This document shows positions 3,181 through 27,155 of a stretch of 33,627 bases of DNA, piece by piece. The notes below the pieces were generated by a model. It saw only the letters and a list, made by a program, of their open reading frames with translations, searched no databases and had not been told where the DNA came from. Origin of the DNA: Methanobacteriota archaeon (GTDB lineage: Archaea > Thermoplasmatota > Poseidoniia > Poseidoniales > Poseidoniaceae); contig JAACDG010000012.1 of NCBI GenBank assembly GCA_009937025.1, positions 1-33,627 on the forward strand, read 5' to 3'. The stretch's first letter is position 1. Every line of letters begins with the position of its first letter. The position numbers and the translations under genes were made by a program.

Positions 3181-3839
3181 TCATCGCCTCCAGTTTCATT
3201 TGCCGATGGTGCTTCTTCAGCAGCAGCAACCACTTCTTCAGCGAACTCTTTGCTTGCTTCTGGGTCGACTTCTTCTTCTTCAACACCGTATTCGGCAGAA
3301 GATGCACGTCCGTCAATCGCTTTTCGGATTGGGTGCTCTGAGTTATCGATCCACGGGCAACTTGGATGCCAGGTGAGTTGTTCTTCTTCATCTCGTGAAA
3401 GAGGGTAGGAAGGGATAGTGACTTTTTGATTTCCAATGACTATTTTACCATGGGTAACAAATTGTCGAGCCTGCTTCATCGAGATTGCAAGTCCCTTGTA
3501 GTAGACTTGAGCTTGGAGACGGCGGTTGAGAATGTCCTCAGTGCTCAAAGAAAGAATATCGTCGAGTTTGGCGTCGGAAGCAATCAGTCCTTTGTTGTGA
3601 AGAGAACGAAGTAAGTCTTCCATCTCTCGCTTTCCATGAGGTTCACTTGTATCGACCATACCAATCAAGCGCATTGCTTGTCGTCGGTGTCGGCGAAGTT
3701 GGGATTTAGCCTTCCAGATTTCGCGCATGTTCTTCAAACCGTGATTGGCTTGAATAGCGTGTTCTTCTTCGATACGAGCAGCCTTCCAAGGATGGGAAGG
3801 CGTGTCAAACTTAGGTCGTGCAAACTTTGGTTCTCCCAT
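3177..3839 (-). CDS. rps4: 30S ribosomal protein S4 (uS4)
   Basis: Archaeal S4 sequence ([15 protein letters not shown]..., S4 RNA-binding region [36 protein letters not shown]) with an acidic C-terminal tail. Confidence 0.97.
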
Positions 3840-3855
3840 TCATCATCCCTCCAAA

Positions 3856-4323
3856 TCACTTCTTTCGGCTCACACCAAGGGTGAGTCCACCACGGCCATT
3901 TGAACGGCCACGTTGTCCACGAACTTTGTTTCCGCTTGCGTGGCGAACACCACGGTAGCATTTCATGGTTCGAAGTCGGTTAATATCGTCTTCAAGAGTA
4001 AGGGAGACCTGTTGTCCAGTGAGATGCAATTCATCTCCTGTTTCGAGGTCCCGTTGGCGGTTAAGCATCCAAAGTGGGACTGTTTCTGCATAGCCTTCGA
4101 TTGCAACACGGAGTGATTCCTGTTCTTCAGCCGAGAGGTGTCCGGCGAGTGAAGCGGGGTCGAACCCAGTGTTCTTACAAATCTGAATTGCAGTTCTTGG
4201 GCCAACGCCTTTCACAGCAGTCAATGCTGTTGCAAGGGTCTTCTGCCCATCCATATCGGTATCTGCCATACGCAAGATGTACGAGAAATCATCTCCCAAA
4301 TCTTCTTCCTTTGGTCGTGCCAT
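3856..4323 (-). CDS. rps13: 30S ribosomal protein S13 (uS13)
   Basis: FSYILRMADTDMDGQKTLATALTAVKGVGPRTAIQI...LRTMKCYRGVRHASGNKVRGQRGRSNGRGGLTLGVSRKK; strong SD GGAGAGGTG upstream of ATG. Confidence 0.97.
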   Translation of the reverse strand: MARPKEEDLGDDFSYILRMADTDMDGQKTLATALTAVKGVGPRTAIQICKNTGFDPASLAGHLSAEEQESLRVAIEGYAETVPLWMLNRQRDLETGDELHLTGQQVSLTLEDDINRLRTMKCYRGVRHASGNKVRGQRGRSNGRGGLTLGVSRKK

Positions 4324-4342
4324 AGTGTTTCACCTCTCCTTA

Positions 4343-4434
4343 ACACAGAGTGTCAAGCAGGTTCCCGACCAACCTCCCCTATATCAAGACCGCGATACGC
4401 CTTCGCGGTACTGAGAAGCGAAAACCCTTGGTTT
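4343..4434 (-). promoter_or_regulatory. Structured leader upstream of the rps13 operon: four consecutive short stem-loops
   Basis: Perfect inverted repeats: ACAC/GTGT (4343-4353), AGGTT/AACCT with 7-nt loop (4359-4375), ACCGCGA/TCGCGGT with 7-nt loop (4389-4409), AAACC/GGTTT (4422-4434). They lie between the 4480 gene end and the rps13 SD. Confidence 0.45.
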
Positions 4435-4479
4435 CAGAGCCTTTTTTTAAAGCCAATCGTGGTGCTAAAAGGGTGCCAA

Positions 4480-5775
4480 TTATTCTGCAATACAAATGAG
4501 GAACATTTCATCGCCAGGCTGCTGAACCAGAAAAGCCTCTCTCCGACCGTGTCTTCGAGCGAGTTGTCGGTCAATAGCACCCTGAATTTTAGGCTGAATT
4601 TCAGGAGCCAGTGGGACGCGAATCGTCATCTTTGCAACATCATGCTCGAGAACCAATTCCACCAATTGATCAACGGTGTCAAGTCCGAGCTGGATTCGAG
4701 CCAAGGCGACAACACGCCCAGTAGCCTGAACCAACATCCGGTCCATTTCATTCTCAAGGCGCAATGGGTGTTTGTGGTGTATTTGGGGGCGACGTCCTTC
4801 AACGTCCCCCCACGTGATGTGTTCGGATTTTGTAACACTCTTCAACCATTCATCCGCCAACCCACTTTCAACAAGCGCTGCATCGAGAATACTGATTCTT
4901 TCACCACGTCTTGGAGGTTGGCGGAGATGCACGGGTAACCCATCTCCTGAAGCGAGACTTTCACCGCCGGAAATGACATATGCTTCTTCAGTTATCGAAG
5001 GCGGAATACGAACAAAACGCCGCGCTACACCTGCAGTAGAGGCACTGCCAAGCCACAACGCGAGACGGTCAACACGCCCTCGACCTCGCGAAGTCCACAC
5101 CCATGTTCGGGTGATTCCATTCCAAACTTCATCGACCATTCTTTCGACGGCAAGACGTTGTTCGTGGGTGAGGCGGGGCGACAAATCGAGAAGTAAAGCC
5201 GGGCCGTTTTCACCTTCGGCCAAATACGGAGCCCAACCCTTGAACACTTCATCGAGTCGAGGGGCCATTTCATCAAGGCCGTGAGTACGACTGTTCCGAG
5301 GGCGAGCAGGGTCCAGGTGGAGCAAGGCAATCGGGGGAAGCCGTTCCGAGTTGAGATGTTCAGCAATCGCTGAACAAACGCTTGCACCATCCCGCCCATC
5401 ACCAGCGACAATACGGGTATTTTGCATGCGAACAGAATTCAATTCATTTCGATATTGAGCAATGGATTGCAGATTGACTGCACTGGCTTGAGCACGCATT
5501 ACATCCAATTCCACACCAATTCCAGGTCGCTGAAGGAGAGCCATATGGGCGCCGAGTTGGATGCCACTCCCACAAGCACAATCCAGAATATATCCTTCAG
5601 GGAGAGAGAGTTGTGTTAAGAGAGTTGAACGCGCTAAAGCAACCTGCCAAGGCGTGGCCAACGGTTTCCCTTGACTGGCATGATAGAAAACCAAAGTTCC
5701 AGCAGCAGTGGAATCAGGTGCATATTCAGTTAAACCTGCTGAGTCAGTTGAATTGGGGTTGAAAATTTCAAGCAT
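4480..5775 (-). CDS. Class I SAM-dependent methyltransferase, possibly with a THUMP-like C-terminal region
   Basis: Motif I ILDCACGSGIQLGA, acidic GVELDV, and HLDPARPRNSRTHGLDEM motif; C-terminal domain of unknown specificity. Confidence 0.75.
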   Translation of the reverse strand: MLEIFNPNSTDSAGLTEYAPDSTAAGTLVFYHASQGKPLATPWQVALARSTLLTQLSLPEGYILDCACGSGIQLGAHMALLQRPGIGVELDVMRAQASAVNLQSIAQYRNELNSVRMQNTRIVAGDGRDGASVCSAIAEHLNSERLPPIALLHLDPARPRNSRTHGLDEMAPRLDEVFKGWAPYLAEGENGPALLLDLSPRLTHEQRLAVERMVDEVWNGITRTWVWTSRGRGRVDRLALWLGSASTAGVARRFVRIPPSITEEAYVISGGESLASGDGLPVHLRQPPRRGERISILDAALVESGLADEWLKSVTKSEHITWGDVEGRRPQIHHKHPLRLENEMDRMLVQATGRVVALARIQLGLDTVDQLVELVLEHDVAKMTIRVPLAPEIQPKIQGAIDRQLARRHGRREAFLVQQPGDEMFLICIAE

Positions 5776-5784
5776 ATCTATGCC

Positions 5785-6387
5785 TCATTGGCCGGCTACA
5801 TCACTTCGAGTCATGATGCTTTCAAAGTGAATTCCAGCCTCTGCAAACGCTTCCTTTGCTCCTTCTTCGCGGTCCACAATACTGATGACGGCAACGACTT
5901 TACATTCGGTATTCTGATGGATACGTTCCACTGCTTTGATCGCCGAACCCCCTGTCGTTGTTACATCCTCGACGATGACGATGGTTCCACCGCCTTCAAG
6001 CGAGGACCCTTCTATACCAGGCGGATTGTTCGTCTTTCTTCCACCGCGCCCTTTCGCTTCTTTACGAACCATGAATCCAAGACGAGGAGTATCGGCGGGC
6101 GAAGTAGCAACAGCAATTGCCGTTAAAGGCACAGCACCAAGTTCCAATCCTCCTACGAAATTAACATTCAATGCGTCCATCCGGAGATTGAAAAGCGCAC
6201 CCAAAAGGTGCGTAGATTCAGGGTGCATCATGACGGGTTTTGTATCAAAAAACCAGCGAGAATTACGCCCACTTGCCAAGGTGAAAGCATCATCACTTCC
6301 GCCATCGATGAATGCCAAATCCCGTACAAGTTCAACAAGACGGGGCCAACTTGAATGAGAGCGAACGCTCGGGTGGACGGACATCAA
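5785..6387 (-). CDS. pyrE: Orotate phosphoribosyltransferase
   Basis: PRPP-binding motif VIVEDVTTTGGSAIKAVERI, FTLASGRNSRWFFDTKPVMM and GLELGAVPLTAIAVA. Confidence 0.9.
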   Translation of the reverse strand: MMSVHPSVRSHSSWPRLVELVRDLAFIDGGSDDAFTLASGRNSRWFFDTKPVMMHPESTHLLGALFNLRMDALNVNFVGGLELGAVPLTAIAVATSPADTPRLGFMVRKEAKGRGGRKTNNPPGIEGSSLEGGGTIVIVEDVTTTGGSAIKAVERIHQNTECKVVAVISIVDREEGAKEAFAEAGIHFESIMTRSDVAGQ

Positions 6388-6501
6388 ACTGTGGTTTTGC
6401 GCCGCATCAATGAACTTTGCTTCTCATGGCTGTGAAACCGATGCCATGTGATTTGAACGCGGCACTCATAAACGGTCGCCCCCAAGAGTCAAAGGAATCA
6501 C

Positions 6502-9500
6502 ATGCCCCCGTCAGATGAGTCAGGTACAAAACGAGGGCACAACCCGCTTCTCGGCCTTGATATTGAACGGTTGGAGGCTGAAATGGAAACCTATCACCAA
6601 TGGCTTGATGAGCACGCTGATGAAGCATACATCATTGCTGAAAAAGCAAGAAAACTGGGATATGACCTCAAAGAACATGTCGAAATACCAAGGGCTGCAG
6701 ATCTTGCAGGTCGAACAGAAAAACTTCTTGTCGAATATCTCGATGGTTACGAAGTTGCAGAAGATATTCGAAAACTCTTGGCCGAACACGACCGAGAAAC
6801 AACTTCGATTATGATGGCTCAAAGCGTTGCACGTGGATTTAGGGAACAAGGGCACGACCTCATTACAGCTATCGATGTTGGTTTGCGAGTTGGTTTGGCG
6901 GTATTGACCGAAGCAGTACTCGTCGCCCCACTTGAAGGCATCAGCGAAGTACGTCTCCTCAACAACATTGACGGCTCTCAATTTGTTTCTGTGCATTTCG
7001 CAGGACCGATTCGAGCAGCAGGTGGTACTGCCCAAGCACTTGCTGTTTTGATCGCAGACATGATACGCAGAGAACTCAACATTGGGCACTATCAACCAAC
7101 AGACCCAGAAGTCGAGCGCGTCAAAGAAGAGTTTGGCTTGTACCGTGGCAATTTACAATATCGCCCTTCTCCAGCAGAGATTGATGAGATTGTCCGTGCG
7201 TGTCCGATAATGATTAACGGGGAATCAACAGAGCGTATTGAATGTTCAGGATATGGGCGGGTACGGAACATTGACGAGCCCCGAATCCGCGGCGGCGTTT
7301 TGCTTGTTATTGGTGAAGGAATGTGTTTGAAAGCACCAAAAATTCAGAAACACACAGAACGCCTTCAAGTTCCTGGATGGGACTTCATCTCTAAATTCGC
7401 TTCAAAAGGAAAATCCGATGATAACGACGGGGACGAATCTCAATTTAAATCGCGTAAGGTTCCGATGATTACCAAATTCATGAAAGACATCATCGCAGGC
7501 AGACCCGTTTTTGGTGCCCCTCTCCAACCGGGTGGATTCCGATTACGATATGGTCGAGCCCGCCCATCTGGGCTCGCTGCCGCCTCGACCAACACCGCAT
7601 CGATGTTGGCGATGGACGACTTCATCACGATCGGGACACAGATGAAAATAGAACGCCCAGGTAAGGCGTGTGCCATCACCCCATCCGATGACACAGATGG
7701 CCCATGGGTCGTCTTACGGGACGGCCGATTCCTCCGTCTTGATGACGCGAAAAGTTACACTGCAATCGGTTCGCAAGTTGCCTCGGTTTGGGACAATGGG
7801 GAACTCGTTCTAGGCTATGGCGAATTCATGGAGAATAACAAGAAATTGGTTCCAGCAGGATACTCAAATGATTGGTGGGCCAGCGACCTCCTTGAAGAGT
7901 TGAACTCCGAAGATGCAGTTGCAGAATTTGCGAGCATCATAGAACAACCCCGCACATCGTTTCCAAACGGCATACCCGGCATTCATCCTGAAGATGCTGA
8001 AGACCCCGGAAAGCAACACATCGCCCGACGTAAGTGGCATGTGTTTTTGGCCGCTTGCACTGTAAATTGGGGCCAATGCAAACTTCTTGCTCATCGATTT
8101 AAGACTTCTATTCCAGCCCCACATAACCCTTGGTTCCTCGATTTACCAATAGAGTGGGTACCTTCGGTATTGGAGTTAATCGACCAAGCGACCATCGAAC
8201 CATTTGGGACATCGAACACACCTCCTCCGGAAATCGAAGAACATCTTCAAGCCATGCCGTTACCTGAAAAACGGCAATTACGTATCCCGGGCGGAGTTCG
8301 TAATTGGTCTCCTGAAATGATGGATAGATTGCGTCCAGAACGGCTTGATAATTTGGCTGAGTTCGAAATACCCGGTCCAAACCTGCAGCCTTTAACACCG
8401 ATTTTTGCAAAAGAAATGCCTGAAGCATGGGCATATATCCAACACGGTTTGGCGAAAGGCGCGGCGATGATTTTGGGGTTGCGTCATCATCACGACGGCG
8501 AGGATTTGGTCATCACAACGGGTTGGCCGGCTTTACTTGAGGGCTTTGGATACAGTTTTGAAGATGAAAAGCCACTTCGAATTGTTGATGCAAAAACACG
8601 CTTTGAAGAACGAATACATCAATTGAGACAATCTCAAATCACGCTCACTGAAGAACGAGAACGTCTCGAAGTACTCCGGCAGGCGCGTGCCACAGTTCGT
8701 ATTGCTGCAGAAACGAATGCACGGCAGCGAGGGCTTGGTATTGCTGAAACAGATGAAGTTGGCCGCCAAGCTGCAGCCCAAGTCCCCAATCCTGGGCCGG
8801 CGGATCCCAAACTGTATTTGGCTGCCCAAATTCATGAAGACGACCATATCGTGGACGGGATTCTTTTGCAAGTCCGAAAAATTTCAGATTTACGCTGGGA
8901 ACATGCGGCGCCGGTTCGAATTGGATGCAGAATGGGCCGGCCCGAGAAAGCAGCCCCCCGTGTCATGAATCCCATGACTCACGCACTCTTCCCCATCGAC
9001 TTGAATGGTGGTAACCAAAGGTTGCTTGCCAATGCTGCCAATAAACAAAGCATTCGCGTTCAAATGGGCCGTCGAACATGCAAGAAATGCGGCAAAGAAT
9101 CACCCTTTATTCTCTGCCATCACCGTCTTGTTGATTCAGATGGTCACGAACGGGTCGGAGAAACATGTGGCGGCCGTACGAAAATGCGAGAATCGGACAA
9201 TAAAAAACGCCGACGCCGAGGTGAAATTCAAACGGTTCGCTTGGATACGATGATTGAAGATGCTCGCATCCGTTTAGGCATCGACCGTATCCCTCGACAA
9301 GTCAAATGCATGAAACAAATTGCCAGCCGAGACCAAACACCAGAAGCGATTGAAAAAGGACTCTTGAGGGCCAAACACAAGTTGCCCGTATTCCGTGATG
9401 GAACAGTTCGATTCGATATGAGCGATGTTCCAATCACCCACTTTACGCCAAGAGAAGTTGGGGTCCCATGGCAAACACTTGAATCGCTGGGCTATGCGAA

Positions 9501-9624
9501 CGATTGCGAAGGAAATCCGCTTCAAAACGATGAGCAAATGTTGGAGATATTCCCTCAGGATTTCATCGTCAGCAAAAATGCGTGTGAATTCTTTGTCCGT
9601 ACTGCACAATTTATTGATGAATGA
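6502..9624 (+). CDS. polC: DNA polymerase D large subunit DP2, N-terminal portion (ends at in-frame TGA)
   Basis: 1040 aa PolD DP2 sequence (SQFVSVHFAGPIRAAGGTAQALAVLIADMIRREL; RMGRPEKAAPRVMNPMTHALFPI; zinc motif CKKCGKESPFILC). Ends ...FFVRTAQFIDE at TGA 9622-9624, just before the catalytic domain. Confidence 0.93.
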   Translation: MPPSDESGTKRGHNPLLGLDIERLEAEMETYHQWLDEHADEAYIIAEKARKLGYDLKEHVEIPRAADLAGRTEKLLVEYLDGYEVAEDIRKLLAEHDRETTSIMMAQSVARGFREQGHDLITAIDVGLRVGLAVLTEAVLVAPLEGISEVRLLNNIDGSQFVSVHFAGPIRAAGGTAQALAVLIADMIRRELNIGHYQPTDPEVERVKEEFGLYRGNLQYRPSPAEIDEIVRACPIMINGESTERIECSGYGRVRNIDEPRIRGGVLLVIGEGMCLKAPKIQKHTERLQVPGWDFISKFASKGKSDDNDGDESQFKSRKVPMITKFMKDIIAGRPVFGAPLQPGGFRLRYGRARPSGLAAASTNTASMLAMDDFITIGTQMKIERPGKACAITPSDDTDGPWVVLRDGRFLRLDDAKSYTAIGSQVASVWDNGELVLGYGEFMENNKKLVPAGYSNDWWASDLLEELNSEDAVAEFASIIEQPRTSFPNGIPGIHPEDAEDPGKQHIARRKWHVFLAACTVNWGQCKLLAHRFKTSIPAPHNPWFLDLPIEWVPSVLELIDQATIEPFGTSNTPPPEIEEHLQAMPLPEKRQLRIPGGVRNWSPEMMDRLRPERLDNLAEFEIPGPNLQPLTPIFAKEMPEAWAYIQHGLAKGAAMILGLRHHHDGEDLVITTGWPALLEGFGYSFEDEKPLRIVDAKTRFEERIHQLRQSQITLTEERERLEVLRQARATVRIAAETNARQRGLGIAETDEVGRQAAAQVPNPGPADPKLYLAAQIHEDDHIVDGILLQVRKISDLRWEHAAPVRIGCRMGRPEKAAPRVMNPMTHALFPIDLNGGNQRLLANAANKQSIRVQMGRRTCKKCGKESPFILCHHRLVDSDGHERVGETCGGRTKMRESDNKKRRRRGEIQTVRLDTMIEDARIRLGIDRIPRQVKCMKQIASRDQTPEAIEKGLLRAKHKLPVFRDGTVRFDMSDVPITHFTPREVGVPWQTLESLGYANDCEGNPLQNDEQMLEIFPQDFIVSKNACEFFVRTAQFIDE

Positions 9625-10623
9625 TTGGTTCGATATTATGGGATGGAGCCTTACTACAACGTCAATACGGCAGACGACTTGGTCGGCCAACTCATTTGCG
9701 CTTTAGCCCCACACACCTCTGGCGGTGTCTTGAGTCGAATCATTGGTTGGGCGGATTGTTCTGGGGGCTATGCCCACCCCTTATTCCATGCAGCGAAGCG
9801 AAGAAATTGCGACGGCGATGAAGATGCCATCATGCTCTTGATGGATGGCTTGCTTAATTTCAGCAGAGAGATTTTGCCTGCGAACAGAGGAGGGCTCATG
9901 GATGCCCCTCTGGTCCTCACCACTCGATTGAATCCGACCGAAGTTGACAAAGAAGCCCTCAACGTTGACTCCGGGTGGTTTTACAGTCGAGATTTTTACG
10001 AAACTACGCTTTCCCAACCGCATCCGAAAGAATGCGCTGAAAGGATGGACTTTGTTGAAAGACGTCTGGGCTCAGTAGCGGCAGTACGCGGATACGGCTA
10101 TACACACGATTGCCATTCTATCGACCAAGGGCCGGCTCTTTGTGCTTACAAAACCCTTGACACAATGATTGACAAAATGAACGGTCAATTAGACCTTGGA
10201 CACCGTTTACGCGCTGTTGATGTTCGTACGGTCGCCTCGAGTGTTGTTCGTTCACATTTCCTACCTGATTTACGTGGCAATCTCAACGCCTACGCTCGGC
10301 AAAAAATACGTTGTCTCAAATGTGCACATTCATATCGCCGAATGCCTGTCGCTGGGAACTGTATTCAGCCGAAAAAAGAAACAGGAAGAGGGCTTACCAG
10401 TGTCGGCGTAGAAAAGTCCGAAGGTGGATTGTGCGGTGGAAATTTGGCCTTGACTGTTTCAGAAGGCGCTGTTCGAAAGTACATCAAAGTCACTAAGCAC
10501 GTCATGGCGACCTACGGTGTCGACGTATATACAAAGCAAAACGTAGAATGGTTGTCCGATAGCGCCGACTCCTTATTCAACAACGACCGCGCCAAACAGT
10601 TATCTTTGTCCGACTTCCTCTAA
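9625..10623 (+). CDS. polC: DNA polymerase D large subunit DP2, C-terminal catalytic portion (same frame, directly after the TGA)
   Basis: Same frame as the upstream ORF: LVRYYGMEPYYNV...LAPHTSGGVLSRIIGW...FHAAKRRNCDGDEDAIMLLMDGLLNFSREILPANRGGLMDAPLVLTTRLNP; ends with PIP-box-like QLSLSDFL. Confidence 0.92.
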   Translation: MVRYYGMEPYYNVNTADDLVGQLICALAPHTSGGVLSRIIGWADCSGGYAHPLFHAAKRRNCDGDEDAIMLLMDGLLNFSREILPANRGGLMDAPLVLTTRLNPTEVDKEALNVDSGWFYSRDFYETTLSQPHPKECAERMDFVERRLGSVAAVRGYGYTHDCHSIDQGPALCAYKTLDTMIDKMNGQLDLGHRLRAVDVRTVASSVVRSHFLPDLRGNLNAYARQKIRCLKCAHSYRRMPVAGNCIQPKKETGRGLTSVGVEKSEGGLCGGNLALTVSEGAVRKYIKVTKHVMATYGVDVYTKQNVEWLSDSADSLFNNDRAKQLSLSDFL

Positions 10624-10708: not shown

Positions 10709-11284
10709 ATGGACGAAGCGACACTCGTGCTCAATATTATTCTCTATGTCTTGCTTCCACTTTGGGGCGTTGCCAGTATGCTTGATTGGTGGTGCCACAA
10801 ACAAACTGATATCGAGGCCACATCTGGGCTCCGTGAAGCGAATATTCATTGTTTGATGGGCGCTCAAATCGGACTTCCTTTGGTTCTCTCGCTCGTCTTT
10901 GAAGTCAATGTTCTGATTCTTCTTTTGTGTTTTGCAGCGCTGATTGCTCACGAATTCATCGCTCATTACGATGTACACTTTACGACTGGGAAACGAGAAA
11001 TCAGTATATGGGAAGTACATGCGCACAACTATTTGGCAACTCTACCCTTCTTCCTCATTCTCTTGATTATCGTACGTAAATGGGAAGTGTTCCTCGATAT
11101 GATAACCCTTGATTGGGCTGGTGGTTTTTCTTTGCAATGGCGACAAGAGCCTCTGGGAGCCTCTGGGAATTATGCAGCAATATACATTTTCACGATGTCC
11201 CTTTTAGTCGTCGGCCCCTATATTCAGGAATGGTGGCGTTGTTGGTCATATGAACGTAAACAAACTCGGGAGGCTACAGAATGA
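10709..11284 (+). CDS. Uncharacterised polytopic membrane protein with conserved-looking His residues
   Basis: Multiple hydrophobic segments; LDWWCHK, GLREANIHCLMGAQIGLPL, AHEFIAHYDVHFTTGKREISIWEVHAHNYLATLPF, VGPYIQEWWRC. SD GAAAGGAG upstream; stop overlaps the next start (ATGA). Confidence 0.8.
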   Translation: MDEATLVLNIILYVLLPLWGVASMLDWWCHKQTDIEATSGLREANIHCLMGAQIGLPLVLSLVFEVNVLILLLCFAALIAHEFIAHYDVHFTTGKREISIWEVHAHNYLATLPFFLILLIIVRKWEVFLDMITLDWAGGFSLQWRQEPLGASGNYAAIYIFTMSLLVVGPYIQEWWRCWSYERKQTREATE

Positions 11285-12417
11285 CAGTCTACATTACCAG
11301 CACAGGTTCCTTTTTACCTGGTCCAGCGATCCAGGTCGACCAAGTTGAGAACATTCTTGGAGCAGTTCATGACAAACCCTCTTCACTCAGAGTTCAAATT
11401 CAAAAAGCAAACAAGATACAAACTCGCCATTATGCAATCGATGAAAATCAACAAACCACCCACAGCAACACAGAAATGGCAACGAATGCTGCTGAACAAT
11501 GCCTTGACCGTGCCTTTCTCAATCGCGAGAAAGTGGGCATGTTAGCCGTTGCTTCGACACAAGGAGACCTCCCTGCACCAGGTATGGCGAGCATGGTTCA
11601 GGCTGAATTAGAATTACCCGAAATCGAGATTCTTACCACTCATGGAATATGCTCATCATCCATCATGGCACTCAAAGCTGCTTGGAACAGTTTGCGTCTT
11701 GAAGAGCATGAAGCGGCTTTAGTTTTGTCAAGTGAGTTAGCCAGCAGACTTCTCAAAAAGCAACGTTATGAGGCTGCAACAACCTCGACCTTTGCTGCAA
11801 AACGAATCGATTTCAGTACCGAATTCTTGCGATGGATGCTTTCAGATGGTGCAGGCGCACTCTTGCTGCAAAACAAACCAGCTCCCAAAGGCCTCAGTTT
11901 ACGAATCGATTGGATACGAGGATTTTCTCATGCACACGCTCTCCCAACTTGTATGAGCGTTGGTTCAGCTGGCCGCCCAACCGATTCGCGAACATGGCAA
12001 GATTACAACACCTATGCAGAAGCGGAACAAGATGGAGCCCTTCTCCTTCGTCAAGACGTTCGCTTACTTGATAATCTCATGCGAATGGGTGTCGATGGCT
12101 ATTTGCGATTGGTCGAAGAAGGCGTAAGTAAACCAAGCGAAGTGGACCACTTTTTGTGCCATTACTCAAGCCATCACTTCAAAAATAAAATTCTTGAAAT
12201 GCTCAATACAGCCGGTGTTGGAATTCCCGAAGAGCGCTGGTGGACAAACCTTTACTCACGCGGAAATACCGGAGCAGCATCTCTTTTCATAATGCTTGAT
12301 GAATTTTTGCGTACCGATGAAGTAACGGTGAATGTCGGCGACAGAGTACTCTGTTTTGTTCCCGAGAGTGGACGTTTTAATACGACCTATCTCCAACTCA
12401 CGGTGGTGGAAGAATGA
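11281..12417 (+). CDS. 3-oxoacyl-ACP synthase III-like (FabH-fold) beta-ketoacyl synthase
   Basis: Thiolase-fold KAS III with catalytic Cys in THGICSSSIMALKAA, His in FLCHYSSHHFK and Asn in YSRGNTGAASLF. Confidence 0.88.
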   Translation: MTVYITSTGSFLPGPAIQVDQVENILGAVHDKPSSLRVQIQKANKIQTRHYAIDENQQTTHSNTEMATNAAEQCLDRAFLNREKVGMLAVASTQGDLPAPGMASMVQAELELPEIEILTTHGICSSSIMALKAAWNSLRLEEHEAALVLSSELASRLLKKQRYEAATTSTFAAKRIDFSTEFLRWMLSDGAGALLLQNKPAPKGLSLRIDWIRGFSHAHALPTCMSVGSAGRPTDSRTWQDYNTYAEAEQDGALLLRQDVRLLDNLMRMGVDGYLRLVEEGVSKPSEVDHFLCHYSSHHFKNKILEMLNTAGVGIPEERWWTNLYSRGNTGAASLFIMLDEFLRTDEVTVNVGDRVLCFVPESGRFNTTYLQLTVVEE

Positions 12418-13163
12418 ATAATGGTGACATATCAATCGAAGGCGGAGAAACCGCTCCAGCAGAAGAAAGCGTACCTGAAGGCGTCGTATTGAATCCCCAT
12501 GCACAAGTTTGTCTCCAACATTTACTTCGAGTTTGGCTTGGTTTTGAACGAGACTTGTCCAAAGTACCACTCTTGCGCCGCATTGATTTAGGCACTTTCA
12601 CCGTTGAAGACCATCAGGTGTTTTTGAGAAATATCCGCCAACAAGTTATCGAAGGTTCGCGTTGGATTACCCGAACTGCAAGCAGTTTTGACCGTAATCA
12701 TTCCGAAATACGCTCGACCATCATCAGTCATGCTGTTGATGAGCACCGAGATTACGAGATGCTTGAGAAAGATTATGTTGCATCAGGAGGTAAACTTGAA
12801 GATATTTTGAATATGGAGCGGAATATTGGTTCAGAGGCTTTACATGGATTCCTTATGCACCGTTCTTCACGTCCAAATCCAATTGACTTGCTCGGTGCCA
12901 TGTGGATAATTGAAGGATTGGGAGAAAAAATGGCTCACTCATGGGCTGAACGGATTCAAGAACTCACAGGACTTTCCGAAGACTCGACTCGATTTATGAC
13001 CTATCATGGTCATAATGACAGTGAGCATATGCAGCGCTTTTACGCAACACTTGACAGCGTTGGTGTCAATGAAGAAGCCATTGCAAGCATAGTGAAAACA
13101 GCAAAAGTGGTTGCTCGCCTGTATCGATTACAATTGGAGGAAATAGAATATGACGTCCAGTGA
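12414..13163 (+). CDS. Heme-oxygenase-like diiron oxidase (HDO) / iron-containing redox enzyme family protein
   Basis: All-helical; candidate metal ligands in HAVDEHRDYE, IIEGLGEKMAHSW and H-x3-D-x2-H within YHGHNDSEHMQRFY; ATGA overlap with the KAS III gene. Confidence 0.72.
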   Translation: MNNGDISIEGGETAPAEESVPEGVVLNPHAQVCLQHLLRVWLGFERDLSKVPLLRRIDLGTFTVEDHQVFLRNIRQQVIEGSRWITRTASSFDRNHSEIRSTIISHAVDEHRDYEMLEKDYVASGGKLEDILNMERNIGSEALHGFLMHRSSRPNPIDLLGAMWIIEGLGEKMAHSWAERIQELTGLSEDSTRFMTYHGHNDSEHMQRFYATLDSVGVNEEAIASIVKTAKVVARLYRLQLEEIEYDVQ

Positions 13164-14073
13164 ACCTACATTATCTCGTAAAGAGCGTCGAGCCAAACGC
13201 CGTCTTGAGAAAGCGCTGGCCAAAAACCACGGACGAATGCCAGCAACACTGAGTGATGCACTGAGTGGAGATGATAGTCTACCATTGGATTTCGAAGCCA
13301 AAGAATACTGGCTCAAAGATCTTCAAAACCCATTGCGCGTAATTATACTGCCGACATTGAAAATTCTTCTCAGCATTACACTTCACCTCACCTATTACCT
13401 CAAACGCCTTTCACCTATTCAATGGAGGGCATACAGATTTCTTCAATGGCAAATCTGCTTTTTCATGAAATATTTTGTTCGCCCGGAAGCAAACATTCTG
13501 ATTCTACGGCATTTCCAAACCGAGAGCAATCTATTGAATTTCGTTATTGACAATTCAGGAAAAGAAGGCGTTGAACCCGTACTCATTTATCCAAAAGTCA
13601 TTCAAGATTTAATGGTCCAGACCTTTGTCCACCATGACCAAGGCGTATTGATGACAATGCGTGACCTTGGTGAAATAAAAGGTGAGAATTGGCCAATTGC
13701 CGAAGCGGATTTACTATGGACAAATTGGAAACCAATCGACATTCAATACACCCTTTCGCAAAAGCGTTGGACTCAATTCCTTGATTTTGAAACAGCACAT
13801 GAATTATTCAAAACGACGTTCTGTTTTTGGCTTACAGCCAAGGAATATGAAGCCGCAATCAATTCGTTTCAATTCGACCATTCAGTCGGTTTGCGCATTG
13901 ATGAAATAATTGGCGCTGCCCATTTTGCTGACCTTGCCCATAACAGATTCCCGATGATTCTTGTTGGCCCAACCGGGCTTTCCTATCGTTTCCTCATGCA
14001 TGGCTTCTTTGTCGAACACGCCCATGCACATCTTGAACGAATGCGAGCAAACTTGGGGTTGGCAAATCGATGA
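13150..14073 (+). CDS. Uncharacterised protein encoded within the KAS III/HDO/desaturase block
   Basis: 307 aa, basic N-terminus, hydrophobic segment PLRVIILPTLKILLSITLHLTYYL, His-containing LRHFQTESN and VEHAHAHLERM. Overlaps HDO by 14 nt and the desaturase by ATGA. Confidence 0.8.
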   Translation: MTSSEPTLSRKERRAKRRLEKALAKNHGRMPATLSDALSGDDSLPLDFEAKEYWLKDLQNPLRVIILPTLKILLSITLHLTYYLKRLSPIQWRAYRFLQWQICFFMKYFVRPEANILILRHFQTESNLLNFVIDNSGKEGVEPVLIYPKVIQDLMVQTFVHHDQGVLMTMRDLGEIKGENWPIAEADLLWTNWKPIDIQYTLSQKRWTQFLDFETAHELFKTTFCFWLTAKEYEAAINSFQFDHSVGLRIDEIIGAAHFADLAHNRFPMILVGPTGLSYRFLMHGFFVEHAHAHLERMRANLGLANR

Positions 14074-14819
14074 ATTATGCCTTTCTTCTGTTCTGGTATG
14101 TCTTCATTGGCCTTGGTGTTTCACTCGGGACCCATCGATTGATTTCGCACAATTCATTTCAATCGAATCCCGTTCTCAAGTATCTCTTGGTCTATGCAGG
14201 TACGCCAGCCGGACCTCCTATTCAATGGGCACTGAATCATCGAATTCACCACAAAACCACTGATACCGCCGAAGACCCACATTCCCCATATTTCGGCGGG
14301 TTTTGGCATGCTCATTGCGGATGGTATCCCCCAACAAGCAACACATTCATCGCAATATTATATGCCTTAGCGGGCCCTATCCGTACCATAATTGACCCTT
14401 TCATCTGGAAAAAATTACCAGAAAACCTACCAAAGGATTTGGATGTTCCCTTGTTGAAATTTATGAGCCGCCGGCCGGTTAATTTCTTCTTAGCCCTCAC
14501 ACACCTCTTGCCTTTTTACCTGTTTTACATTGAATTTGGATGGCTTGGAATTGGCCTTGCACATATCATTACGGTTTTGTTTTACAACATCGGAGATTCA
14601 ATATATTCCGTTTCCCATTTAGTTGGTTCACGAGACGACCCGAATACAGAGGCTCGAAACTTTCTTCCAAGCGCTCTGCTAACGATGGGCGAGGGAAACC
14701 ATGCCGAACATCACCGTGTTCCAGGAAATGCAAGCTTTGGCGGATTTGACCCGGGTTACTTTTTCTTACGAATCATGAAAGTTATTCGTATGGTCAAATT
14801 GAAACCGCATCGCGATTAA
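14070..14819 (+). CDS. Membrane fatty acyl desaturase (Delta9/acyl-CoA desaturase-like)
   Basis: Three His boxes: HRLISH, HRIHH, and EGNHAEHH. Confidence 0.92.
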   Translation: MNYAFLLFWYVFIGLGVSLGTHRLISHNSFQSNPVLKYLLVYAGTPAGPPIQWALNHRIHHKTTDTAEDPHSPYFGGFWHAHCGWYPPTSNTFIAILYALAGPIRTIIDPFIWKKLPENLPKDLDVPLLKFMSRRPVNFFLALTHLLPFYLFYIEFGWLGIGLAHIITVLFYNIGDSIYSVSHLVGSRDDPNTEARNFLPSALLTMGEGNHAEHHRVPGNASFGGFDPGYFFLRIMKVIRMVKLKPHRD

Positions 14820-14897
14820 ACGTTCTTTGGCGAATTGAAACAAATAACGTATCGCTCTCATCGGCGACTTCATCAATCACCAACCCCTGGTCAACTT

Positions 14898-15734
14898 ATG
14901 CGAATCAGTCATCGAACACAAAAAGGCGAAGAAGCCTATCCTACTGAAATACCACAATTCGGCCTTGGCGTCTTTTTGATGGCTGATGACGGTGACTGCA
15001 AATCCTCTGTATTGGCTGCTCTTCATGCAGGCTACAACCATATCGATACGGCAAGCATGTATCAGAATGAACGCGACGTCGGCCGAGCGCTCAAAGAAAC
15101 GGGTATCGAACGTTCTTCAGTTTTCATCACGACAAAACTTCGACGTGGAGATGCTGTTGGATATGAAGAGGCAATCGAACAATGTAAGAAATCGCTCGAA
15201 CTCTTGGATACGGATTACATCGACCTCTATCTCGTTCATGCACCGCCTGTTGACCCTGAGCATCGCGCCCCGGTTTGGAAAGCAATGGAGTACTGCCTTG
15301 AACAAGGATGGGTCAAATCAATCGGAGTTTCGAACTATGGGGTAGCCCATTTGGATGCGATGAAGAAGTATGCCAACTATATGCCAAGTGTGAACCAAGT
15401 CGAATACAATCCTTGGCTCCAACGCCCCCACCTTAAGCAAGCAACAGAGGATGCAGGTGCCAAATTGATGGCGTATTCCCCCCTCGCCCGGGGCAAAAAA
15501 GTCGCTGACCCAAAACTTGGAGAAATCGCTCAACGGCTTAATTGCACTCCTGCTCAAGTCGCCATCAAATTCTGTTATGACCAAGGTTGCATCACGATTC
15601 CAAAGTCGAGTAACCCCTCACGCATCGTCGAGAATATCGCTTCACTCAACATTGACATTTCGAGTGAGATGGATGCGATTATCGCGTTGGAAGAAAACTA
15701 TGTTTCAGGATGGGACCCAACCACTGAACCTTGA
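14898..15734 (+). CDS. Aldo/keto reductase
   Basis: FGLGVFLMADDGDCKSSVLAALHAGYNHIDTASMYQNERDVGRAL, VFITTKL, YIDLYLVHAP, SIGVSNYG, NQVEYNPWLQ, IPKSSNPSRIVEN. ORF opens at 14835, but MRISHRT (14898) is a more plausible start. Confidence 0.93.
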   Translation: MRISHRTQKGEEAYPTEIPQFGLGVFLMADDGDCKSSVLAALHAGYNHIDTASMYQNERDVGRALKETGIERSSVFITTKLRRGDAVGYEEAIEQCKKSLELLDTDYIDLYLVHAPPVDPEHRAPVWKAMEYCLEQGWVKSIGVSNYGVAHLDAMKKYANYMPSVNQVEYNPWLQRPHLKQATEDAGAKLMAYSPLARGKKVADPKLGEIAQRLNCTPAQVAIKFCYDQGCITIPKSSNPSRIVENIASLNIDISSEMDAIIALEENYVSGWDPTTEP

Positions 15735-15764
15735 GTTAAGCCAAAATAAGAGCCACACTATCCT

Positions 15765-16130
15765 TTGGTTATGGCGAAAATCAACATCGATGAAAAATTA
15801 ACCAAGTTTTCAGGTCACTGGTCGCCACGCGTCGTAGCAGAAATGAACGATTATCAGTTCAAACTGGTCAAAATCCAAGGTGAATTTGTCTGGCACAATC
15901 ATGTGGATACCGATGAAGTCTTCATCGTCGTCAAAGGTTCAATGGGCATAGAAATGAAACATGAAAACATCACGCTCAACGAGGGTGAAATGTATGTTGT
16001 ACCAAAAGGGGTTATGCACAAACCATATGCTATCGAAGAATGTCATGTGATGTTGGTTGAGCCACAGGGTGTCGTAAGCACCGGCGAGGAAGAAGGCGAA
16101 CTCACGGCAGAAAACGATGTTTGGGTGTGA
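15765..16130 (+). CDS. Cupin-domain protein
   Basis: GEFVWHNHVDTDEVFIVVKGSMGIEMKHENITLNEGEMYVVPKGVMHKPYA: standard cupin motifs 1 and 2. Confidence 0.9.
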   Translation: MVMAKINIDEKLTKFSGHWSPRVVAEMNDYQFKLVKIQGEFVWHNHVDTDEVFIVVKGSMGIEMKHENITLNEGEMYVVPKGVMHKPYAIEECHVMLVEPQGVVSTGEEEGELTAENDVWV

Positions 16131-17199
16131 GGTTATGAGCGAGTCGCTGATCGATGAAGACATCCGGAGAGCGAGGACACTCCCTTCCCAATTCTACACT
16201 GAGGTAGATGAATTTGAGCGCCTGAAAAGCGTTTTCACAGGCTGGCAATTTGCTGCACATCGATCTGAATTGGAGAGCAATTCAATTCAACCACTCGAAC
16301 ATATTGAGGCTATCAACGGTGAATCAATGGTTTTGATGAAAGGCCAAGAAACAAATTGTGTTTCCAATGTTTGTACCCACCGAGGAATGCGATTAGCACT
16401 CGAAGCGTGCAGCAAAAAAACACTGCAATGCCGCTATCATGGACGCACATTCGATCTTGACGGAACCTTTCGCCATATGCCCGAATTTGAACAAGCCATA
16501 GGCTTTCCAAGTGAAGAAGACAACCTCAAACAATTTCCTCTCAAACAATGGATGGGGATGTTTTTCACTGCACAAGGCGAGGGAATAGATTTGCCCTGGG
16601 ATCTGCTTGAGCAACGCTTGGGGTTCCTCGCACCAGAATCATACTCCCACGATACAGACCGAGAGCGAGACCACAGTGTTGATGCCAATTGGTTGTTGTA
16701 TGTTGACAATTTCTTAGAAGGGTTTCACATTCCTTATGTTCATCCTGAACTCAACCAAGCACTCGATTATTCAGGCTACATCACCGAGACCTTTGACGGC
16801 GGGGTGTTACAAATCGGCAAGGCAATGGATGGCGATGTTAAGTTCGATTTACCACCAGGCCATCCAGATGAAGGCCAAGATATCGCTGCGTACTATCTGT
16901 GGCTCTTCCCGAACATGATGTTCAACTTCTATCCGTGGGGATTATCGGTCAACGTGGTTATTCCAGTCTCACACAACCGGTGCCGCGTACTCTATCGCGG
17001 CTATGTCAGCGATGCAGAACTTGCCAATCAAGGCGCAGGTTCAGTGCTTGATACCGTTGAACATCAAGACCAGTGGGTGATTGAAGAAGTGCAGAAAGGT
17101 ATGGCGTCAAAAGCCTATGACCGAGGAAGATATTCACCGACCAAAGAGCAAGGTGTGCATCATTTTCACAGAATGCTCACACAGTTTATCGGCGAGTAA
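16117..17199 (+). CDS. Rieske [2Fe-2S] non-heme iron ring-hydroxylating oxygenase, alpha subunit type
   Basis: Rieske motif CTHRGMRLALEACSKKTLQCRYHGRTFDLDG, catalytic-domain DNFLEGFHIPYVHPEL; overlaps the cupin gene by 14 nt. Confidence 0.92.
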   Translation: MFGCEVMSESLIDEDIRRARTLPSQFYTEVDEFERLKSVFTGWQFAAHRSELESNSIQPLEHIEAINGESMVLMKGQETNCVSNVCTHRGMRLALEACSKKTLQCRYHGRTFDLDGTFRHMPEFEQAIGFPSEEDNLKQFPLKQWMGMFFTAQGEGIDLPWDLLEQRLGFLAPESYSHDTDRERDHSVDANWLLYVDNFLEGFHIPYVHPELNQALDYSGYITETFDGGVLQIGKAMDGDVKFDLPPGHPDEGQDIAAYYLWLFPNMMFNFYPWGLSVNVVIPVSHNRCRVLYRGYVSDAELANQGAGSVLDTVEHQDQWVIEEVQKGMASKAYDRGRYSPTKEQGVHHFHRMLTQFIGE

Positions 17200-24482: not shown

Positions 24483-27155
24483 TTAAAGTTCAGTTATGTC
24501 TTTACGTTCAGTAGAAATTCCGAATTCTTTCTCGGCTTTCTCATAGACCTTGGCCTCAATTGAACCGTCTCTTACAAGGGAGGAGAGCGCTGCAAGCGCA
24601 ACGGCTGCTCCATCGATTTCAAAGAATCTGCGAAGCGCTTCTCGAGTATCTGAGCGGCCAAATCCGTCCGTTCCTAAGACGGTGAAGTGACCTGTGACCC
24701 ATTGGCGAATCATATCGGGGACCGCGGCCATATTATCGCTGACAGCAACAACCGGGACCTCTGCATTCCCAAGCATTTGTTCAACCCATGGCTGTTTAGC
24801 GGTTTTTGCCGGATGCAAGCGATTCCATCGGTCGCATTCCAAACCTTCTCGGCGTAATTCTCCATAAGAGGTGGCTGAATATATTTCGGAACGAACGCCA
24901 TATGCTTCGAGTTTTTCAACAGCATCAAGCACCTGCACCATGATTGGACCTGAGCCGATAAGTCGGACGATTGGACCGTCGCCCTTCGGGGCACTGCGCA
25001 GTAAATACATGCCTCGAATGATGCCTTGGTCAACACCTTGTGGTTTTGGTGGCATAGGATAATTCTCATTGTAGACAGCGATATAATGGATGACATCCTT
25101 ATCTTGTCCATACATTTCATCAATGCCATGGCGAATGATGGTTGCCAATTCGTAAGCAAACGCTGGGTCCCAGGCACGGACAGCCGGATTGGTGTGTGCC
25201 ATGAGGAGTGAATGCCCATCTTGGTGTTGCAAACCTTCACCGTTGAGTGTAGTTCGGCCCGAAGTAGCCCCCATTAGGAAGCCGCGAGCGCGCTGGTCGG
25301 CTGCAGACCATATGAGGTCAGCCACACGCTGGAATCCGAACATAGAATAGAAAATGTAGAAAGGGATTGTCGGATAATGGTGTGTTGCAAAAGAAGTAGC
25401 TGAAGCAATAAACGTAGAGGTTGCACCGGCTTCATTGATGCCTTCTTCCAAAAGTTGGCCTTTGGCTGATTCCTTGTATTTCATCAGAACTTTGTGGTCA
25501 ACTGGCTTGTAGAGTTGACCCTCGGGGTGATAGATTCCAAATTCAGAAAACAATGGGTCCATTCCGAAGGTACGCGCTTCATCAGGAATAATTGGGACGA
25601 TACGCTTACCAAACTCCTTGTCTTTCATCAAAGAGCGTAGAATTCTAACAAAGGCCATAGTGGTTGAGACTTGCATTTTTCCTTTGGTACCTTCATCAAA
25701 TTCAGCATACGTTACTTCTTCTGGTAATGTCAAATCAAATTTAGGCACAACACGAGTTGGCATGAATCCATCCATAGCAGCACGACGTTGTTTGGCATAA
25801 GCAACCAATTCCGGAACATCTTCGGGCATAACATAGGGGTACTTTTCCAAATCTTCATCCGAGAAACCGAGTCCTAAATCATCGCGCATGTATTGGATAC
25901 TTTCCATTCCCGCCTTCTTCTTTTGATGTGTTGTGTTCCGGCCTGCAAAGGCTGGGCCAAGCCCAAATCCTTTGATGGTGCGCATCAATACAACGGTTGG
26001 TTGCCCTTTGTGAGCGGTAGCTTGGGCATAAGCTGCGTGGAGTTTGACGAAATCATGACCTCCAACATCGGCACACAAATCGATTAAATCGTCATCACTT
26101 AAGTGTGAAACAAGGGCTTGTAATCCATCCGAATTAAACAATTCTTTGCGGATGATTGCTCCTTCAGCAGTCATGATTCGCTGTTCATCACCGTCGACCA
26201 ATTCATCAAGGCGTGCAGCAAGAAGTCCCGCAGAATCGCGAGCAAACAAATCATCCCAACCGGTGCCCCAGAGAACTTTGATGACGTTCCATCCAGCACC
26301 ACGAAATCTCCCTTCGAGTTCTTGGACGATCTTCGAATTGCCACGAACGGGGCCATCAAGTCGTTGCAGATTACAGTTCATGGTCATGACAATATTATCC
26401 AGGCCTTCGCGCCCTGCAAGAGAAAGTTGAGACAATGATTCCGGTTCATCGGACTCACCATCACCCATAGTATACCATACACGGGAGTTTGCAGTTGAAA
26501 CTAAACCTCGGTCTTCGAGATAGCGGTTGAAACGAGCTTGGTGAATGGCAGTCATTGCACCAAGCCCCATGCTTACGGTTGGGAACTCCCAGAAATCTGG
26601 CATGAGTCTCGGGTGCGGATATGAAGACAAACCTTTGCCGCCAGTTTCTTGACGAAACGCTTCCATTTGTTCATGAGTCAAACGCCCTTCAAGCCAAGCA
26701 CGAGCGTAAATGCCAGGAGAAGCATGCCCTTGCCAATAGAGGTGGTCGCCTTGCCCAGCGCCATCTTTGCCTCGGAAGAAATGATTGAATCCAATCTCCC
26801 AAGCATGAGATGCGGAAGCATAGGTCGAAATGTGGCCCCCAATACCTTCGAAGTTTCTGTTCCCACGTGTGACGACCATCATCGCATTCCATCGGATGAT
26901 ACCATGGAGGCGTTCCTCCATTTCCAAATCGCCGGGATATGTGCCTTGGTTTTCAGGATGAATGGAATTGAGATAAGGGGTATTGACCACATCGATTTCA
27001 ACGCCAGCATGGCGAGCAGCATCAACTGTAGAAAGTAAGAGACGTCGCGCTTCTTCATCGCCGAGTTGGTCACGAACAGCAAGGATTGAATCGACCCATT
27101 CCTGTGTAGCAACAGGGTCTGGGTCCGGTAAAGTTCCTCGAACACCGAAGCGCAT
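24483..27155 (-). CDS. aceE: Pyruvate dehydrogenase E1 component, homodimeric (AceE type)
   Basis: 890 aa; HPRLMPDFWEFPTVSMGLGAMTAIHQARFNRYLEDR, TPP motif GDGESDEPESL...NIVMTMNCNLQRLDGPVRGN, HHYPTIPFYIFYSMFGFQRVADLIWSAADQRARGFLMGATSGRTTLNGEGLQHQDGHSLL, GTDGFGRSDTREALRRFFEID. Confidence 0.96.
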   Translation of the reverse strand: MRFGVRGTLPDPDPVATQEWVDSILAVRDQLGDEEARRLLLSTVDAARHAGVEIDVVNTPYLNSIHPENQGTYPGDLEMEERLHGIIRWNAMMVVTRGNRNFEGIGGHISTYASASHAWEIGFNHFFRGKDGAGQGDHLYWQGHASPGIYARAWLEGRLTHEQMEAFRQETGGKGLSSYPHPRLMPDFWEFPTVSMGLGAMTAIHQARFNRYLEDRGLVSTANSRVWYTMGDGESDEPESLSQLSLAGREGLDNIVMTMNCNLQRLDGPVRGNSKIVQELEGRFRGAGWNVIKVLWGTGWDDLFARDSAGLLAARLDELVDGDEQRIMTAEGAIIRKELFNSDGLQALVSHLSDDDLIDLCADVGGHDFVKLHAAYAQATAHKGQPTVVLMRTIKGFGLGPAFAGRNTTHQKKKAGMESIQYMRDDLGLGFSDEDLEKYPYVMPEDVPELVAYAKQRRAAMDGFMPTRVVPKFDLTLPEEVTYAEFDEGTKGKMQVSTTMAFVRILRSLMKDKEFGKRIVPIIPDEARTFGMDPLFSEFGIYHPEGQLYKPVDHKVLMKYKESAKGQLLEEGINEAGATSTFIASATSFATHHYPTIPFYIFYSMFGFQRVADLIWSAADQRARGFLMGATSGRTTLNGEGLQHQDGHSLLMAHTNPAVRAWDPAFAYELATIIRHGIDEMYGQDKDVIHYIAVYNENYPMPPKPQGVDQGIIRGMYLLRSAPKGDGPIVRLIGSGPIMVQVLDAVEKLEAYGVRSEIYSATSYGELRREGLECDRWNRLHPAKTAKQPWVEQMLGNAEVPVVAVSDNMAAVPDMIRQWVTGHFTVLGTDGFGRSDTREALRRFFEIDGAAVALAALSSLVRDGSIEAKVYEKAEKEFGISTERKDITEL

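Follow-up and report, generated by a model that had tools for sequence, protein, structure and literature searches.

A bacterial-type ketosynthase, HDO and DUF6999 gene cassette in Poseidoniaceae archaea, with a proposed role in making an acyl-derived lipid

The stretch of DNA analysed here (33,627 nt, hereafter the window) is contig C10 (JAACDG010000012.1) of a Poseidoniaceae genome whose assembly is fragmented and resembles a metagenome-assembled genome (MAG; 1.88 Mb, 83% complete, 186 contigs). Between positions 10709 and 14819 its + strand carries five genes, here labelled g1 to g5. The first, g1 (10709-11284; 191 aa), taken from the list of open reading frames (ORFs), encodes a small His-rich membrane protein. 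It is followed by g2 (11281-12417; 378 aa), a StlD/DarB-like ketosynthase (KAS III) with a C124-H294-N329 triad, recognised by profile and structure-database searches; g3 (12414-13163; 249 aa), an iron-containing redox enzyme of the HDO type, placed in PF14518 above the Pfam cut-off; g4 (13150-14073; 307 aa), a helical DUF6999 protein; and g5 (14070-14819; 249 aa), an accessory acyl-CoA-type desaturase (PF00487), here called type A. Successive genes overlap by 4, 4, 14 and 4 nt, and the ATGA at 11281-11284, the g1/g2 junction, was confirmed by direct reading. A preliminary description of this DNA had placed all five ORFs, and the overlaps at the four junctions, exactly and had named the families correctly, but it placed the His-rich membrane protein last instead of first, and the protein that it listed as unknown, g4, belongs to a known family.

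The junctions are conserved among relatives. Across 43 archaeal loci the overlap is kept at g1/g2 in 42/43, at g2/g3 in 43/43 and at g3/g4 in 41/43, with usual lengths of 4, 4 and 14 nt, and bacterial loci show it at g1/g2 in 26/32 and at g3/g4 in 28/29. Because the overlaps are kept across archaeal relatives, and at g1/g2 and g3/g4 also in bacteria, those within g1-g4 are not due to chance. Moreover, the neighbourhood recurs elsewhere: essentially every complete locus has the order g1-g2-g3-g4, whether in Poseidoniaceae, in Gammaproteobacteria (Rheinheimera, Arsukibacterium, Alkalimonas, Vibrio, Shewanella, Endozoicomonas, Reinekea and others) or in one Myxococcales MAG. The conserved overlaps and joint carriage of g1-g4 support the earlier suggestion of one functional unit. 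The operon of five overlapping genes is real; its natural unit, however, is g1-g4, with g5 as a variable addition.

Carriage of this cassette is all-or-nothing. Among 146 archaeal relatives DUF6999 was found in 29, the KAS in 28 of those genomes and g1 in 28 plus one remnant (counts inflated by the relatedness of the genomes), giving 28 complete cassettes, one cut by a contig end and one remnant. The sole mismatch is G030, whose contig ends inside g3 (L015). The remnant, an 82-aa g1 fragment (G078:C40:8772-9017) in a genome with neither KAS nor DUF6999, is likely what is left of a lost cassette. In a sample of 392 genomes of the phylum, DUF6999 was detected only in the host's family (25 hits). 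Carriage is patchy within one genus, and the cassette follows polD in some lineages, and a ribonucleotide reductase-like gene or other genes elsewhere. Therefore, the four genes have been acquired, lost or relocated as a set on more than one occasion. A further copy resides on a Pseudoalteromonas plasmid. No regulator, exporter or receptor was conserved with the cassette across the loci compared. This bacterial-type cassette, which some but not all Marine Group II archaea carry, appears to be undescribed, and the literature searched yielded no characterised cluster with the same gene set.

Two further loci deserve mention. An apparently decayed KAS-HDO-DUF6999 set with no annotated genes lies on the Nostoc flagelliforme plasmid pNFSY08 (L023, ~3831-6453), 0.6 kb after a cytochrome P450 gene. 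In the Myxococcales MAG a gene for an MMPL/RND-type transporter (L065:2231-4759), possibly a lipid exporter, stands just upstream of the desaturase and cassette.

In Pseudomonadota a second group of DUF6999 loci joins the two enzymes in one polypeptide of 631-655 aa, the KAS forming its N-terminal part and the HDO its C-terminal part, and DUF6999 follows directly. This fusion with adjoining DUF6999 was present in six divergent Pseudomonadota loci; in L116 KAS and HDO are separate genes. Most fusion operons carry a PF00487 desaturase and a PF04116 fatty-acid hydroxylase upstream. We did not find g1 in the fusion operons, and therefore the minimal core is KAS, HDO and DUF6999. The fusion is independent evidence, at the level of sequence, that KAS and HDO act in series, and would mark a natural handover from ketosynthase to diiron oxidase of which we found no description in the literature searched.

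The best family model for g2 is StlD/DarB (NF005293, 372 bits), below its curated cut-off of 450, as is the score for NF053539 (322 vs 550 bits); StlD/DarB is still the top-scoring family, and FabH scores far lower (65 bits). StlD (5gk0) is by far the nearest solved structure (E=5.5e-68), with 36% identity over the full length, against 22% to E. coli FabH. All of the 31 relatives compared keep C124, H294 and N329, a full Cys-His-Asn triad that lines up with those of both 5gk0 and E. coli FabH. Control loci with StlD/DarB-like genes (Prevotella, Bacteroides, Streptomyces), none of them DarA-bearing, contained neither HDO nor DUF6999. On Streptomyces linear plasmids (L118:8721-17149 and L119) the StlD/DarB-like KAS is accompanied by acyl carrier proteins, FabF, FabG, an FAD oxidoreductase and a P450; this locus, without HDO or DUF6999, is a different StlD/DarB-like cluster.

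The match of g3 to PF14518 (36.1 bits, cut-off 28.9) is backed by residues expected of a metal site: E80, H106, E110, E167 and H198-x3-D202-x2-H205 are invariant in 39 sequences, fused forms included, so that the putative HDO ligands, assigned from sequence, are conserved in homologues. The first ligands are spaced differently from those of SznF. HDOs are defined by 3H/3C or 3H/4C ligand sets (PMC13108848), with which the g3 residues, H-x3-D-x2-H included, are compatible as a putative metal site. Searched against the PDB with E up to 10, the g3 profile matched 3dde, 6iuq, 6n63 and 9ypi, only 3DDE being significant; UndA was not detected among PDB structures even at E = 10.

The remaining two members of the unit are harder to place. 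DUF6999 (PF22523) is matched by g4 at 1.7e-86 (290 bits, gathering score 27), and R120, H121, H162, D163, D212, N238, D243, R280, H284 and E289 are invariant. Its AlphaFold model is helical (pLDDT 88.9) and has no significant fold match in the PDB; DUF6999 is unmentioned in the literature searched. We considered whether g4 is a degenerate HDO and rejected this: PolF HDO chains were the top Foldseek matches, but at E ~1, probability 0.07 and TM 0.14, and profile-profile comparison with g3 gave a probability of 1%. About five helices make up g1, whose model is all helical (pLDDT 92) and whose residues H30, E36, E43, H47, H81, E82, H86, E102, H104 and H106 are invariant in 31 sequences. It has no Pfam or NCBIfam family (none of the 31 members rose above chance in Pfam) and its model has no PDB fold match. 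With neither family nor fold match, g1 was rejected as an FA_hydroxylase, a desaturase or another known membrane iron enzyme, and a PDB match to the ADP/ATP carrier (E 0.002, 52 positions) was judged to be chance.

The desaturase g5 scores 51.4 bits against PF00487 (cut-off 29.7), its best PDB match is stearoyl-CoA desaturase 4ymk (1.5e-16), and His boxes were found at 57 (HRIHH) and 211 (HAEHH), and reading the sequence gave HRLISH at 22. The place behind DUF6999 is taken in Poseidoniaceae by type A in the window's lineage, L085-L088 and L095, and in many other loci by a type B desaturase with no significant similarity to g5. The archaeal type B enzyme and the fusion-operon desaturase share 44% identity, while the KAS of the same two groups are only ~43% identical. 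The Myxococcales locus has a type A gene just upstream of g1, whereas Gammaproteobacterial cassettes, and several archaeal cassettes behind polD, have no desaturase. A desaturase or fatty-acid hydroxylase recurs beside the KAS-HDO-DUF6999 trio in three groups. Overall, g5 is an exchangeable accessory, and desaturases have been recruited repeatedly.

That the cassette sits in an archaeal genome, as the preliminary description held, is borne out by its surroundings. The gene for the archaeal PolD large subunit lies just upstream in 17 cassette loci, and the cassette was found in dozens of Poseidoniales records. Since the same cassette follows the same polD gene in records labelled Ca. Poseidoniales or Euryarchaeota, the host is a Poseidoniaceae-type archaeon. 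The gene set is not specific to this archaeon, however, and is bacterial-type on the KAS tree. There all archaeal sequences group in a single clade (100/100), whose sister is the Myxococcales sequence (91/76), and they lie inside bacterial diversity; StlD served as a distant outgroup and some outgroup branches are long. Transfer from bacteria to Poseidoniaceae is the simplest reading of this tree, which does not settle the exact donor.

In the window the PolD large subunit gene (6502-10623) contains an in-frame TGA at 9622-9624, where 15 relatives have a Leu codon; it probably reflects faulty assembly or a mutation in the MAG and not recoding. Close behind g5 on the same strand (14835-17199) are genes for an aldo-keto reductase, a cupin and a Rieske ring-hydroxylating oxygenase; we rejected these as members of the unit, as they do not adjoin the cassette in other loci. 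A long ORF on the - strand (24483-27155) resembles a homodimeric-type pyruvate dehydrogenase E1, by eye only.

Genes that could supply substrates are at hand in the host. Contigs C98 and C115 (L124, L123) between them hold a type I synthase with KS, AT, a second KS-like region, ACPs, KR and DH, along with a FabI-like enoyl reductase and a 4'-phosphopantetheinyl transferase. In G003 the synthase is a single 3045-aa gene, nearest to PfaA of polyunsaturated fatty acid synthases (926 bits, cut-off 1010), and the PfaA-like fatty-acid/polyketide synthase, of about 3,000 aa and adjacent to the reductase and transferase genes, is intact at L135:2434-11571. Acyl-CoA dehydrogenases in the host genome are an alternative source of enoyl- and oxoacyl-CoA. 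Given these genes, supply of both acyl-ACP and enoyl/3-oxoacyl-CoA is plausible. We did not accept co-occurrence of the synthase as proof of supply: it is present in 97/146 relatives, nearly the whole family, which is consistent but not discriminating. Two f2 copies of the PfaA-like synthase (G110, G120) contain TGA.

Taken together, we favour on balance the proposal that g1-g4 is a horizontally moved biosynthetic cassette, with an exchangeable desaturase, that makes an acyl-derived, O2-dependent, non-isoprenoid lipid. DarB and StlD form a 1,3-cyclohexanedione from a 3-oxoacyl and a 2-enoyl thioester (PMC5515871). The KAS would likewise condense two acyl thioesters, most likely a 3-oxoacyl with a 2-enoyl or acyl thioester, to a cyclic 1,3-dione of cyclohexanedione/resorcinol type or a related ketone. 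The HDO would act next, using O2 to aromatise, hydroxylate or cleave this product; DUF6999 may perform a further step or hand over the product, and g1 and the desaturase may tailor chains at the membrane. Since there are no DarA-like or carrier-protein genes in the conserved set, the oxidative step would replace the known aromatase, or the product would differ. The result would be a fatty-acyl-derived lipid or lipid-like metabolite, non-isoprenoid and made only with O2 present. We infer condensation and oxidation from what the genes themselves display, namely family identity, conserved putative catalytic residues, linkage and fusion.

Several observations weigh against this proposal. The score of g2 lies below the curated StlD/DarB cut-off. 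Neither a DarA/StlC-type aromatase nor a dedicated carrier protein gene is in the conserved set or the annotated Pseudoalteromonas locus (L022 was read from its annotation; no genome-wide search was made). Gammaproteobacterial cassettes have no desaturase, and therefore g5 is not essential. Lastly, the roles given to g4 and g1 are guesses with no functional anchor.

A possible but somewhat unlikely alternative is that the product is a specialised metabolite, such as a diffusible signal, pigment or antioxidant resembling dialkylresorcinols, and not a structural lipid. This would explain the patchy carriage within one genus and the movement between genomic sites; the Pseudoalteromonas plasmid copy and the decayed Nostoc copy point the same way, and known StlD/DarB products belong to such metabolites. 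However, a signal or secreted compound finds no conserved regulator, exporter or receptor here, and the membrane-type partners (g1, desaturases, fatty-acid hydroxylase) suggest a product that is membrane-bound. We consider it unlikely that the cassette merely adapts membrane acyl chains, with the KAS working like FabH or as a chain extender, the desaturase and g1 modifying the chain and no cyclic product arising. The desaturase and fatty-acid hydroxylase neighbours would suit such a role, as would the resemblance of g5 to stearoyl-CoA desaturase, but the KAS is far closer to StlD/DarB than to FabH (372 vs 65 bits; 22% identity to the E. coli enzyme) and an HDO fused to it would be unexpected for simple chain supply.

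The preliminary description had also inferred acyl-thioester chemistry and an acyl-derived product such as an alkene. The chemistry is supported and a lipid is a reasonable inference; for an alkene there is no support. That idea would have the HDO, like UndA, decarboxylate a fatty acid or a beta-keto acid to a 1-alkene or a long-chain ketone/alkene, and it draws on g3 being in the HDO family, beside an acyl-condensing partner, and on UndA being an HDO that acts on fatty acids (PMC13108848). Against this, the g3 profile significantly finds 3DDE alone among solved structures and misses UndA up to E = 10, whose free fatty acid substrates need no KAS, and both the fusion and a KAS nearest StlD/DarB (cyclohexanedione/resorcinol chemistry, not an alkene route) suggest a KAS-derived substrate; we regard this route as improbable. 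An artefact, whether bacterial contamination binned with the archaeon or a chance overlap of unrelated genes, might be suspected from the fragmented assembly of 186 contigs with at least one in-frame stop in an essential gene, but is refuted for practical purposes by the repeated archaeal flanks (17 loci right after polD, dozens of Poseidoniales records) and the single 100/100 KAS clade.

Marine Group II archaea abound in surface oceans. Their genomes hold a bacterial-type glycerol-3-phosphate backbone and fatty-acid genes (PMC6461757, PMC7852524), and environmental work found no known archaeal lipids attributable to them, leaving their lipid identity open (PMC6962369). As a speculation that we think has a minor chance of holding in full, uncultured Poseidoniaceae might make an undescribed O2-dependent lipid class through a KAS coupled or fused to an HDO, with DUF6999, from chains of their own PfaA-like synthase, as part of the still unknown Marine Group II membrane lipids. 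Some carriers of the cassette, namely Rheinheimera, Arsukibacterium, Vibrio and Pseudoalteromonas, can be cultured, which makes part of this question testable at the bench.

Among known systems, the StlD/DarB pathways, which make stilbenes, dialkylresorcinols and 1,3-cyclohexanediones, use a ketosynthase that is of one family with g2 along the whole length and has an identical triad and the FLRWMLSDGAGA stretch in common with it. They differ in having a DarA/StlC aromatase and a DarC carrier protein, both missing from the conserved set here, which instead has an HDO (sometimes fused), DUF6999 and the His-rich membrane protein. Cyanobacterial dialkylresorcinol clusters of the bartoloside type come close in pairing a DarB homologue with a dimetal-carboxylate oxidase that acts on acyl chains (PMC8406957); however, that oxidase is a CylC-type halogenase and not an HDO, DarA is present and DUF6999 is not reported. 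With the HDO superfamily (UndA, SznF, BesC, CADD, AetD, PolF) g3 shares the PF14518 match, H-x3-D-x2-H and the conserved carboxylates and His, but its sole significant sequence match, 3DDE, is a structure without known function, and its partner gene is a ketosynthase, a pairing for which we found no report among characterised HDOs. Like stearoyl-CoA-type desaturases, g5 carries HxxHH boxes and matches 4ymk; unlike them it is short (249 aa), sits in a cassette and is swapped for an unrelated desaturase in other Poseidoniaceae. Set beside these systems, what is new is the gene combination and the KAS-HDO fusion rather than any enzyme class.

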